The position numbers and the translations under genes were made by a program. From positions 2,728,674 through 2,792,673 of the forward strand of contig NC_012623.1 in assembly GCF_000022485.1 (NCBI RefSeq): DNA of 64,000 nt, written 5' to 3'. This document shows positions 29,498 to 60,420 of this stretch, one piece after another. Below the pieces are notes generated by a model. The model ran no database searches and had not been told where the DNA came from. It saw only the letters and a list, made by a program, of their open reading frames with translations. Every line of letters starts with the position of its first letter. Within the stretch, counting starts at the first letter, position 1. This DNA is from Sulfolobus islandicus Y.N.15.51. Its GTDB lineage: Archaea; Thermoproteota; Thermoprotei_A; Sulfolobales; Sulfolobaceae.

Positions 29498-30787
29498 ATG
29501 AATGTAGAGAAAGAGCTTAGAGAAAAGGGTGTAGAAATTTTAAGGTTCACTTGGGTTGGGTTAGATGGATATATTAGATCAAAGGGAGCGTATATTGACC
29601 ACATAGATGGATTATTAAAAACGGGCATAGGCTTAACAATGGCAATGATGAGCTTTACCCCAATGAATTATATAAGTCCCTATGGGACATTTGGACCACA
29701 AGATGAAGATGTATTCCTTACTCCAGACCTTAGCACACTCTCAATTTTTCCACCATCAGCCATGGTATTATGTAATTTGTATAAGCAAGGAAATCCGTGG
29801 AATTATGATCCTAGAAGTACGCTAATTAAAACAATAGAAAAGGTGAAAGAAAGATACGATTTCGACTTCAAATCAGCCTTCGAAATAGAGTTCTACTTAA
29901 CAAAGGATAGAAAACCATTTGATGAGGCTAGGTGTTTCGATCCTTCTGCATTTTATACTAATCAAATCGTTCCGGAAATTGCCAAAACAGTAAGGCAAAT
30001 CAACATAGAACCGATAAGGATAATAAAGGAATATGGACCAGGACAGTACGAATTTGACATAATGCACAAAGATACGTTGAGAAGTGCCGATGAAGTTATT
30101 ATATTTAAGGAAGTCGCTAGACAAGTAGCGAGTAAACATGGTGTTGAGGCAAATTTCATGCCAAAGCCTTTTAATAAAATGGCTGGATCTGGACTACATT
30201 TGAACATTAGCGTATGGAAAGATAATCGGAATTTGTTCTATAACCAGAACGATAAGTATGGACTTAGTAACTTAGCTTATAACTTCATAGCTGGTTTATT
30301 AGAACATGCTAAAGCGTTAACTGCAATAGCCGCACCCACTATTAACTCCTATAAGAGACTAGTTCCAGGCTCTTGGGCACCAACTAAAATAGCCTACGGA
30401 TATAACAATAAGTCTGCAATGATAAGAATACCAACACCATATCCCGGAATGTCACAATTAGATAGGAGAATAGAATATAGAGTTTCCGATCCCTCAACAA
30501 ATCCATATCTTCTCTTAACAGCAGTAATAGAGGCAGGGTTGGATGGAATAGAAAAAGGATTGAAGCCTCCAGAAGCTTTAAATGAAAATGCATATAATAG
30601 AAAAGATATTGAGGACATACCAAGAAGTCTCAGAGAAGCGCTAAATGAACTAAGAAAAGATACCAGATTAGTGGAAAAAATTGGTAAAGAAATTATCGAT
30701 GAATTCATAAAGGTCAAGTTAGCTGAGGTAGAGGAATATGAAAGCCTAGTAACAGATTGGGAATATGAGGTGTATAGGCGATTATAA
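29498..30787 (+). CDS. Glutamine synthetase-like ligase (FluG-type C-terminal partner)
   Basis: 429 residues. The beta-grasp N-terminus 'ILRFTWVGLDGYIRSKG' and catalytic domain are complete: 'FEIEFYL' (metal Glu pair), 'QYEFDIMH', 'NFMPKPFNKMAGSGLHLNIS' and 'SYKRLVPGSWAPTKIAYG', then 'RIEYRVSDPSTNPYL'. The sequence is shorter and more divergent than housekeeping GlnA. The next gene is an amidohydrolase; in fungal FluG and related bacterial proteins these two parts are fused. A gamma-glutamyl-amide ligase/hydrolase pair, for example for polyamines, is therefore likely (inference). Confidence 0.85.
   Translation: MNVEKELREKGVEILRFTWVGLDGYIRSKGAYIDHIDGLLKTGIGLTMAMMSFTPMNYISPYGTFGPQDEDVFLTPDLSTLSIFPPSAMVLCNLYKQGNPWNYDPRSTLIKTIEKVKERYDFDFKSAFEIEFYLTKDRKPFDEARCFDPSAFYTNQIVPEIAKTVRQINIEPIRIIKEYGPGQYEFDIMHKDTLRSADEVIIFKEVARQVASKHGVEANFMPKPFNKMAGSGLHLNISVWKDNRNLFYNQNDKYGLSNLAYNFIAGLLEHAKALTAIAAPTINSYKRLVPGSWAPTKIAYGYNNKSAMIRIPTPYPGMSQLDRRIEYRVSDPSTNPYLLLTAVIEAGLDGIEKGLKPPEALNENAYNRKDIEDIPRSLREALNELRKDTRLVEKIGKEIIDEFIKVKLAEVEEYESLVTDWEYEVYRRL
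30767..30772 (+). promoter_or_regulatory. Shine-Dalgarno GAGGTG deciding an AUU start
   Basis: GAGGTG, the complement of the archaeal 16S rRNA tail, lies inside the end of the glutamine synthetase-like gene. It is 8 bases before ATT 30781, ideal spacing for the downstream amidohydrolase, and about 50 bases before the first ATG (30823), which is too far. Confidence 0.6.
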
Positions 30788-31842
30788 TAGATTCTCATGC
30801 CCATTGGTTCTCTGCTAAGATAATGAGTGAGAAGGAATTTATAATAGCTTCAGCTGAATCTTGGCTTGAAAATGAAATAAGTGCAGATACATTTACAATG
30901 AATCAATTGAGGCCATTCTATCTATATCTAAGGAATGAACTTAGAAGATTATTAGGTGACAATTTCATAGAAGAAAGAAATAAGTTAATCAAAGACGATC
31001 CAGTAAAGTATATGCAATTCCTATTTAATGACGCTGGAATAGAGGGATTTGTAATAGATACTGGATTTGGAAATAAGGAGATGGAAATACCAGCAAAACT
31101 AAAGTTACTATTTAGAATAGAGAGCATTATTAATGATAGTATTTTTCAAATGCCTTTCGATAAGGTCTTAGAGTACTTTGAGGAAACCTTAAGGGGAAAA
31201 ATAAGAAAAGAAGGGTATACTGGTTTTAAGAGTATAATAGCATATAGAACTGGATTAAAAGTGAACTGTGACATAGAACAAGCTAGAAGAGATTTTTACA
31301 GTAATGAGACAGATTGGTTTGGCAAAGTTGTAAAGGGTTTTAGAGATTATCTACTTTGCGAAACCTTAAGAATAGCTAAAGAGTTAAAAGTTCCCGTACA
31401 AATTCACACCGGGGCTGGAGATAGAGATATTAAGCTAGAACTATCAAGACCTTCATACCTAACTAATGTTGTTAGAAAGTATGAAGGAAAGGTAATTTTC
31501 GTGCACGCTGGTTATCCTTATCATAGGGAGACATCTTGGATGTCCTACCTCTATCCCTCAGTTTACTTAGACACCTCACAAGTAATACCATTTGCACCTT
31601 TAGCAGCTTATACTATACTAAACGAGATTTTTGAGGTAGCCCCATTAAATAAGGTGATGCACGGTTCTGATGCGTTTCACATTCCAGAAATAGCTTGGCT
31701 TGCAGCTAAGTTAGCTAAAAAAGCTATACATAAAACTACAGAAATGATGATTGAAAAAAATATATTAGATGAAAAAGATGCTAAAGAACTGGTTGAGAGG
31801 TTCTTATACTATAATTCTAAGGAAATGTATGGGTTTGACTAG
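30781..31842 (+). CDS. Amidohydrolase (amidohydrolase_2), probable AUU start
   Basis: The usual call would start at ATG 30823, but the same frame is open upstream to 30781 and encodes 'IIDSHAHWFSAK', the His-Xaa-His metal site that opens every amidohydrolase_2 protein ('MIIDSHAHW'). No ATG, GTG or TTG precedes it. ATT 30781 overlaps the upstream stop and has GAGGTG 8 bases before it. From there the product is 353 residues with 'VPVQIHTGAGD', 'VIFVHAGYPYHRE' and 'VMHGSDAF' completing the metal and substrate site. It forms the N-terminal half of a split FluG-type pair and overlaps the convergent gene by 39 bp. Confidence 0.82.
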   Translation: MIIDSHAHWFSAKIMSEKEFIIASAESWLENEISADTFTMNQLRPFYLYLRNELRRLLGDNFIEERNKLIKDDPVKYMQFLFNDAGIEGFVIDTGFGNKEMEIPAKLKLLFRIESIINDSIFQMPFDKVLEYFEETLRGKIRKEGYTGFKSIIAYRTGLKVNCDIEQARRDFYSNETDWFGKVVKGFRDYLLCETLRIAKELKVPVQIHTGAGDRDIKLELSRPSYLTNVVRKYEGKVIFVHAGYPYHRETSWMSYLYPSVYLDTSQVIPFAPLAAYTILNEIFEVAPLNKVMHGSDAFHIPEIAWLAAKLAKKAIHKTTEMMIEKNILDEKDAKELVERFLYYNSKEMYGFD

Positions 31843-58530: not shown

Positions 58531-59212
58531 AATACTAGTAGCTTCGGATTATGATAGGACATTAGCCAATGAAGAGAGTAATTTTGTAATATCCCCCATT
58601 GTTGTACAAAAGATAAATGAATTTTCAAAAAAGTATAAGTTTGTTGTAGTGAGTGGTAGGGAAAAGAAATTTATGGACAAGTTGGCTGTTGGTTTAAGAC
58701 CTACTGCGTGGATACTGGAGAATGGTTCGTTGATATTTTTCGATAATAAAGAGTTTGTGCTTTGTGAAAAGAGTTGGTTTGAAAGAGATAGGGAGAAGAT
58801 AATTGAAATATTAGATAATCTTAAAGCTAAGTATTCTATAGGTAGAGTTATAATATATATTGATGGTTATGGATCTAAATTAGATATGCTAAGGGATATA
58901 GAAAAGTATGGAAGAATAGAGGTGAATAGAAACGATGCTATGATTCTACCTAAAGGTGTGGACAAGGGTGTAGGAGTTTTGAAGTTTAAGGAATTAACTG
59001 GATTTAAGGGAAAGATAATAGCTGTAGGAGATAGTGAAAACGATTATGCGTTATTTAGAATTGCTGACATTAAAGTAGCAGTTGCAAATGCAATACCTCA
59101 AATAAAGGAAATTGCTGATATAGTGACTGAAAAACCTAATGGTTTAGGAGTAGTGGAGATTTTAGATAAGATATTATCTGGGAATTTTGGAAAAGAAGTA
59201 GATATCCACTAA
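58511..59212 (+). CDS. HAD phosphatase, Cof/phosphoglycolate phosphatase type (IIB)
   Basis: 233 residues. Motif I is 'VASDYDRTLANEESN' (Asp-Xaa-Asp-Xaa-Thr), motif II is the Ser in 'FVVVSGREKK', and motif IV is 'AVGDSENDYALF'. A IIB cap lies between (about 85-170). The most likely substrate type is a sugar or glycolate phosphate. The start is TTG 58511 within the endonuclease IV gene, implying coupled translation. It converges with the methylase gene with a 39-bp overlap. Confidence 0.85.
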   Translation: MDIDWNEILVASDYDRTLANEESNFVISPIVVQKINEFSKKYKFVVVSGREKKFMDKLAVGLRPTAWILENGSLIFFDNKEFVLCEKSWFERDREKIIEILDNLKAKYSIGRVIIYIDGYGSKLDMLRDIEKYGRIEVNRNDAMILPKGVDKGVGVLKFKELTGFKGKIIAVGDSENDYALFRIADIKVAVANAIPQIKEIADIVTEKPNGLGVVEILDKILSGNFGKEVDIH

Positions 59213-59797
59213 GAACTCATGAATTCTTTTCATGTGCCAAGGATAATATGGTTTTAATCTGTACCTCTCAGACAATATTTCAGCAGAAAATCCGTGCTCT
59301 TTAGCTATTTTGATTATAATTTGCCTCGATCTTTCATTAGACTTATGTATAGAGTAGACTACATTGGAAATACTAAAAGCTGTTTGTAAAAACTTAATAT
59401 CTATTCCTCTATTTACTACTCCAAATGGAGGATTTTGAATTACAGTATCAAATCTACCGTAAAATTGGATTATATCAGCATTTAACAGCTCTATGTCTAA
59501 GTTTAATTCGCTTTTGATATTTCTTGCAGTCTCTAATGATTCTAGATCAATCTCCACACAAGTGCAATAAGCACCTAAAAGTGAAGCCGCAAAGCAGAAA
59601 ACGCCAGTTCCACAACCTAAATCAACTACCTTCTTATTGCTTATATGCCCAGATATATATGCGTGCCAAACTATTTGAGCAACTATTGGTGAAGGTGTTA
59701 CATACTGTTCTAGTTCGTACTTCGGATTTGGATGTGGTTTTGAATATTTTTCTAGGAATTTTTCAATCTCTCTTTTACTAATTCTAGAGCTTCCAAT
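59174..59797 (-). CDS. RNA N6-methyladenine methylase, METTL5-like, probable AUU start
   Basis: The part after GTG 59557 lacks the SAM site. The frame is open farther upstream and encodes 'HPNPKYELEQYVTPSPIVAQ' and 'KKVVDLGCGTGVFCFAAS', the correct N-terminus of this family, up to a stop at about 59803, without ATG, GTG or TTG. ATT 59797 has GGGTGA (59805-59810) 7 bases before it and gives 207 residues; ATT 59782 (202 residues) is the alternative. 'VIQNPPFGV' is the catalytic NPPF. Archaeal relatives modify 16S rRNA. The start lies within the upstream phosphatase gene. Confidence 0.85.
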   Translation of the reverse strand: MGSSRISKREIEKFLEKYSKPHPNPKYELEQYVTPSPIVAQIVWHAYISGHISNKKVVDLGCGTGVFCFAASLLGAYCTCVEIDLESLETARNIKSELNLDIELLNADIIQFYGRFDTVIQNPPFGVVNRGIDIKFLQTAFSISNVVYSIHKSNERSRQIIIKIAKEHGFSAEILSERYRLKPYYPWHMKRIHEFLVDIYFFSKIPR

Positions 59798-60420
59798 AAA
59801 TTATTCACCCTATTTTCCTTTATTTCAGGATAGAACCCTAATCTATCTAAAAGTATTGCCTCAAGACCTGCTCTTTTCGCACCAATTACGTCTATTTCGT
59901 AAATGTCGCCTATATGAATACCATCACTTTTAGCGATTTCCATGGCGTAGGAGAAAATCTTTGGGTGAGGTTTCATAACGTTCAAATCACATGATGCTAC
60001 TATACCATCAAAGTACTTCTTAATACCCAGATCTTCTACTATTTTATAGATATTTCTGGTTGCGTTACTAACTAAAACAACTTTAAATCCGAGTTGTTTG
60101 GCTTCCTCTAGGAACGTAATTGAATCGTCATAGAGTTCATATTCCCCAGATAACAAGTTTTTGCTATTTAATCTAGCTATTGATTCTTGATCAGGATATA
60201 TATTAAGTTCATAAAACAGTTCCCTAAAATCAAAAGCTGAAAGACCTCCGTATTCTGGGCTAGGATAGTGATGTTTTCCTAGAATCTTCGCAACTGCCTT
60301 GAAAACTCTCTTTTCGTCAACATTATACCCAATTTCCTTAAGGGCATATGCAATATTTTCGTGGTACCTAGGCTTAAAGTGTACTAGCGTCTCTCCTAAG
60401 TCTACAAATATTGCCTTCAT
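59752..60420 (-). CDS. HAD-superfamily hydrolase (IA type)
   Basis: 222 residues. Motif I is 'AIFVDLGETLVHF', where the second Asp position is Gly, as in many archaeal HAD proteins; motif II is 'VVLVSNATRNIYK', motif III the Lys in 'VMKPHPKIFSYAM', and motif IV 'HIGDIYEIDVIGAKRAG'. A helical cap lies between 15 and 80. Loss of the general acid position would weaken phosphatase activity. The 3' end overlaps the RNA methylase start by 46 bp. Confidence 0.82.
   Translation of the reverse strand: MKAIFVDLGETLVHFKPRYHENIAYALKEIGYNVDEKRVFKAVAKILGKHHYPSPEYGGLSAFDFRELFYELNIYPDQESIARLNSKNLLSGEYELYDDSITFLEEAKQLGFKVVLVSNATRNIYKIVEDLGIKKYFDGIVASCDLNVMKPHPKIFSYAMEIAKSDGIHIGDIYEIDVIGAKRAGLEAILLDRLGFYPEIKENRVNNLLEALELVKERLKNS

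Follow-up and report, generated by a model that had tools for sequence, protein, structure and literature searches.

The window, a 64,000-nucleotide stretch of the 2.85 Mb genome of Sulfolobus islandicus Y.N.15.51 (genome G000, contig C1), contains a glutamine-synthetase-like (GS-like) gene of the gamma-glutamylamide synthetase type, which is followed on the same strand by a gene for an amidohydrolase family protein (Table 1). The GS-like product matches PF00120 (6.9e-109 in a profile search), while its best match among the ncbifam models, NF045547, lies under the cut-off. The 3' end of the GS-like gene both contains a Shine-Dalgarno (SD) sequence and overlaps the start of the amidohydrolase, by 7 nt if the latter begins at ATT 30781; the SD sequence is read there as Glu-Val, and the probability that these residues are encoded as GAG GTG by chance, estimated from codon usage, is 0.057.

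From 30775 the amidohydrolase frame reads TAG GCG ATT(30781) ATA ATA GAT TCT CAT GCC CAT TGG. There is no ATG, GTG or TTG in this frame between the TAG and the ATG at 30823, and neither GAGGT nor GGTG immediately before that ATG. The first-pass annotation had described a first ATG falling after the His-Xaa-His (HxH) motif, an upstream DSHAHW in the same frame without a canonical start, an ATT overlapping the preceding stop and a GAGGTG eight bases before it; reading of the frame and of the positions bears out each of these.

Table 1. Features at the GS-like/amidohydrolase locus and other genes discussed. Positions refer to the window unless contig C1 of G000 is named.
Feature	Position	Strand	Remarks
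GS-like gene (gamma-glutamylamide synthetase type)	29498..30787	+	429 aa, end ..YRRL*; stop TAA 30785-30787
GAGGTG, Shine-Dalgarno	30767..30772	+	within GS coding sequence (codons GAG GTG); in 4/4 clade species
In-frame TAG	30775..30777	+	blocks longer amidohydrolase N-terminus; in 4/4 clade species
ATT, proposed AUU start codon	30781..30783	+	kept in 4 species; SD gap 8 nt
ATA ATA, alternative non-canonical starts, less favoured	30784..30789	+	SD gaps 11 and 14 nt
Amidohydrolase family protein	30781..31842	+	353 aa if from AUU; PF04909
His-Ala-His metal-binding motif (H6, H8)	30796..30804	+	invariant in 20/20 orthologues
First ATG (M15), probably internal	30823..30825	+	start there drops 14 residues incl. 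HxH
RimK-like alpha-L-glutamate ligase	G000:C1 2431501-2432391	+	TIGR00768, 204 bits vs cut-off 143; loci L173, L176-L205
aRF1 release-factor gene (TIGR03676)	G000:C1 2427226-2428329	+	loci L174, L206-L235; other families L261-L280
METTL5-like methyltransferase	59177-59800 (G000:C1 2787850-2788473)	-	loci L175, L236-L260
Isopropylmalate-synthase-like gene	G000:C1 2481734-2482870	-	loci L301-L330
ABC-transporter ATPase-like ORF	G000:C1 2530598-2531434	-	

The predicted amidohydrolase

The gene is predicted, from sequence and a structure model, to encode a metal-dependent hydrolase of the Amidohydrolase 2 family. Residues 3-352 match PF04909 (Amidohydro_2) over profile positions 1-289 of 289 (6.3e-40, 138 bits against a gathering score of 26.4), and H6, H8, H209, H242 and D297, the metal ligands expected for the family, are invariant in the alignment of 20 orthologues. 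Among solved structures, a model built using these orthologues (pLDDT 74, pTM 0.77) is closest to the metal-dependent TIM-barrel hydrolase 2qpx (TM 0.81). The protein thus resembles the family and 2qpx in domain, fold and HxH/H/H/D residues, although the Sulfolobaceae enzyme differs in being paired with a GS-like gene; the two products are possibly a gamma-glutamylamide synthetase/hydrolase pair. The first strand of the model (beta-1, residues 2-7) carries HxH, and a start at 30823 would remove this strand, the motif and the first positions of the PF04909 profile.

Conservation of the locus and loss of the canonical start

The relatives of G000 include Metallosphaera and other Sulfolobaceae. 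Among 31 Sulfolobaceae genomes, 20 possess an orthologue of the amidohydrolase, and the GS-like gene is its neighbour in all 20 loci. One member of the same genus, G017, has no amidohydrolase gene. A scan of genome contigs with the single protein gave no match, and an alignment-based scan of the contigs recovered a few Sulfolobaceae and distant relatives, none of them from the genus. None of the 20 orthologues lacks HxH, the absence of which from homologues had been named as grounds for rejecting the first-pass reading.

In four species (G000, G013, G016 and G014, with 100, 94, 92 and 90% protein identity) the frame reads ATT ATA ATA GAT TCY CAT and lacks a canonical start; two codons upstream of the ATT it has a TAG. 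The missing start is not a sequencing error, because three further species share it with G000, and nor is the arrangement due to chance, since it is the same in all four. All 16 remaining orthologues have an ATG, GTG or TTG 2-11 codons from the DxH motif. Inspection of homologues for an ATG at the ATT position, which had been suggested as a check, finds it exactly there in four (L009, L010, L015 and L016), while most others have a canonical start within a few codons: one codon before (L006, L007), two codons before (L008, L012-L014) or, as ATG, one codon past, at the first ATA (L017, L018). The start is GTG or TTG in L011 and L019-L021, and the residue matching M15 is Leu in L012-L014.

The spacer between the GS stop and the Asp codon is 2 nt in the four-species clade as against 18 and 25 nt in G012 and G015, the other carriers in the genus, where the ATG sits inside the GS-amidohydrolase spacer. 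The stretch absent from the clade amounts to 16-23 bases and, because the relatives' start lies within it, a deletion probably removed the start; the simplest history would be that spacer and start were lost in one event before the four species diverged.

The codons upstream of M15, including HxH, are under selection at the protein level, and synonymous changes dominate. Over codons 1-14 pN/pS is 0-0.26 in six species pairs, a test that rests on only 14 codons, and downstream of codon 14 it is 0.09-0.12 among the four species; all five variable sites in the stretch encoding DSHAHWFSA are synonymous.

A second gene with a conserved ATT

The rarity of this pattern was assessed by comparing G000 with G015 over the genome stretches covered, which gave 379 orthologue pairs; the missing starts were filtered to remove antisense shadow ORFs and overlaps with upstream genes. 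Conserved codons before the first canonical start are uncommon, and only two of the 379 pairs, the amidohydrolase and a RimK-like ligase gene, show the pattern.

Like the amidohydrolase, the RimK-like gene combines ATT and SD with the lack of a canonical start in the same lineage; it differs in that several genera retain its ATT, at a constant distance from the SD. This ATT stands 6 nt past GGTGA (GGTGG in some) in 19 of 26 readable Sulfolobaceae loci, with an in-frame stop 2-3 codons upstream of it in most of these and spacer codons that vary freely across species. A possible GTG occurs seven codons earlier in three of the 19 (L185, L186, L188). Frameshifting from a GTG before the ATT was considered and rejected, as that frame stops within three codons in L190, L192 and L200-L202. 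Two genomes have ATA at the place of the ATT (L189, L198), the Metallosphaera-type genus has TTG, and readable loci beyond the Sulfolobaceae have mostly ATG, GTG or TTG. The RimK-like ATT thus gives independent support to the use of AUU in this lineage.

Identity of the initiation codon

SD spacing was calibrated on 213 gene starts common to G000 and G015, in which the core GGTG lies 5-10 nt before nearly all starts that have it (mode 7). The gap from GGTG to ATT 30781, 8 nt, falls within this range. Given this spacing and the apparent second AUU gene, AUU 30781 is the most likely start, and translation from it, giving MIIDSHAHW..., is what we consider probable; the predicted N-terminus of the product would be (M)IIDSHAHWFSAK. 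The first-pass proposal that an AUU start restores HxH is accordingly supported by the comparative evidence, the SD spacing and the RimK-like gene, and we regard it as likely to be correct. The codon at 30778 was also considered as a start and rejected, being GCG, GAG, AAG or ACG among the four species.

Initiation at AUA 30784 (or 30787), which would shorten the protein by one or two residues and retain HxH, is unlikely. The ATA is likewise kept by all four species, ATG replaces the first ATA in two relatives and the RimK-like gene has ATA in two genomes; however, gaps of 11 and 14 nt are used by none of 31 calibrated starts, and ATT is the codon that fits both genes. The conservation of ATT and of the first ATA is not independent evidence for either, since both lie partly inside the GS codons TTA TAA.

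Less probable again, and in our view improbable, is initiation at ATG 30823, yielding an inactive or altered product without HxH. This ATG, kept in the four species, is the earliest canonical start of the frame, but no SD lies right before it, the HxH amino acids are kept while third positions vary, and the product would lose the first profile positions together with the beta-1 strand.

A -1 ribosomal frameshift at the GS end, producing a GS-amidohydrolase fusion, is very improbable. The two genes overlap, the amidohydrolase frame is -1 relative to GS, and -1 frameshifting is how S. solfataricus expresses fucA1 (PMC8211752); however, only the seven bases GCGATTA, from the TAG to the GS stop, are usable, and within them neither CGA to GCG nor TTA to ATT allows re-pairing. 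No slippery site was found in the overlap, including any of A_AAA_AAN type, and the orthologues have separate GS and amidohydrolase frames, several with a spacer. No single GS/amidohydrolase polypeptide of FluG type exists among the orthologues, whose frames are separate in all. Fungal FluG is itself a GS/amidohydrolase fusion; its domain order is opposite to the GS-then-amidohydrolase order seen here, where the genes are unfused.

That the gene is a decaying pseudogene, as its lost start and its absence from G017 might suggest, is the most improbable reading, given full-length frames and a pN/pS of 0.09-0.12 after the loss of the start in four species.

Apparent frameshifts in other genes

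The scan of orthologue pairs also brought up three genes with apparent frame changes near their starts. The aRF1 release-factor gene lacks an ordinary start in its main frame: it reads ATG AGT CTT TGA and then continues in the +1 frame in all 30 Sulfolobaceae loci read, and in L279, with CTT TAG replacing CTT TGA in two genomes (L221, L233). Several other families of the order have an NNT codon followed by a stop (ATT, GTT or TTT with TAG, or GGT with TGA), and ordinary starts are present in G187, G048 and G037. The CTT TGA site resembles the CUU UGA C autoregulatory +1 frameshift site of bacterial RF2 (prfB), and a +1 frameshift site of this RF2-like kind seems to recur in aRF1 genes through the order. 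Such autoregulation was described in 2012 as absent from archaeal release factors (PMC3521657), and no later report of an aRF1 site was found in the searchable literature; the site is potentially of greater importance than the amidohydrolase AUU start.

In the METTL5-like gene one frame encodes a conserved peptide that begins with GTG, V-N-N-L-L-E-A-L-E-L-V-K, and the -1 frame encodes the enzyme body, with junctions of A_AAA_GAG, A_AAA_AAT or A_AAA_AAC, an apparent conserved -1 frameshift in Sulfolobaceae. Its conserved ATT was rejected as a third AUU start, the conserved upstream peptide being in a different frame and pointing to -1 frameshifting. In the isopropylmalate-synthase-like gene of many genera a short ATG AGT ATT CTC ... 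NNY-stop frame precedes the +1 frame (for example ATG TCA ATT CTC GGT TAA T in L309), suggesting a possible +1 frameshift, perhaps leucine-related because the CTC is conserved; an ordinary GTG start is possible in the Metallosphaera-type genus. In G000 and G015 about 26 codons upstream of the earliest canonical start of the ABC-transporter ATPase-like ORF are conserved.

Discussion

In the history that we propose, the four species descend from an ancestor in which a small deletion would have taken the GS-amidohydrolase spacer together with its ATG. Ribosomes ending GS translation, or newly recruited by the GAGGTG in the GS 3' end, would then reach the AUU, and initiator Met-tRNA would be placed on AUU 30781, 7 nt into the GS end. 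Amidohydrolase output would probably be below the AUG level and coupled to GS translation. The lineage would tolerate AUU given a good SD, and the family apparently uses it for the RimK-like ligase too.

Among bacterial genes, infC (encoding IF3) and pcnB start with AUU, and to our knowledge the well-known AUU starts are limited to a few bacterial genes. The amidohydrolase resembles infC and pcnB in having AUU as apparent initiator codon, an SD ahead of it and conservation across species. It differs in being archaeal, with aIF1/aIF2 initiation, in having no known link to initiation, and in that its AUU seems to post-date a deletion and shares bases with the gene before it. Work on AUU and IF3 is cited in PMC1976387. 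Two reports count against AUU: it is a weak start in bacteria, reaching about 0.3% of the AUG level when all codons were tested, as quoted in PMC10666635, and aIF1 of S. solfataricus discriminates against non-canonical starts (PMC8211752). Reconstruction of start-codon switches in 36 bacterial and archaeal groups gave one AUG to AUU change in 61,358 (PMC5622118). Archaeal translational coupling with short gene overlaps has been described, with ATT named as a possible overlap start (PMC10666635); the present locus is similar in that the proposed start of the second gene runs into the stop region of the first, and different in its strong SD and its overlap of 7 nt, which is not of the ATGA type. 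In the searchable literature, which covers few subscription journals, we found no example of an archaeal AUU start and no report of the RimK-like one.

Start callers restricted to ATG, GTG and TTG would truncate AUU-started genes, and a truncated amidohydrolase would look like an inactive protein without the metal-dependent hydrolase motif. We put forward tentatively, at somewhat less than an even chance, that AUU may be a standing start codon of the Sulfolobaceae, kept across genera in the RimK-like gene as the infC AUU is in bacteria, possibly tying output to the level of aIF1, and re-recruited in the amidohydrolase after deletion of its ATG. If true, a single archaeal family would have two AUU genes, including one that several genera conserve, as natural substrates for testing start selection based on aIF1.
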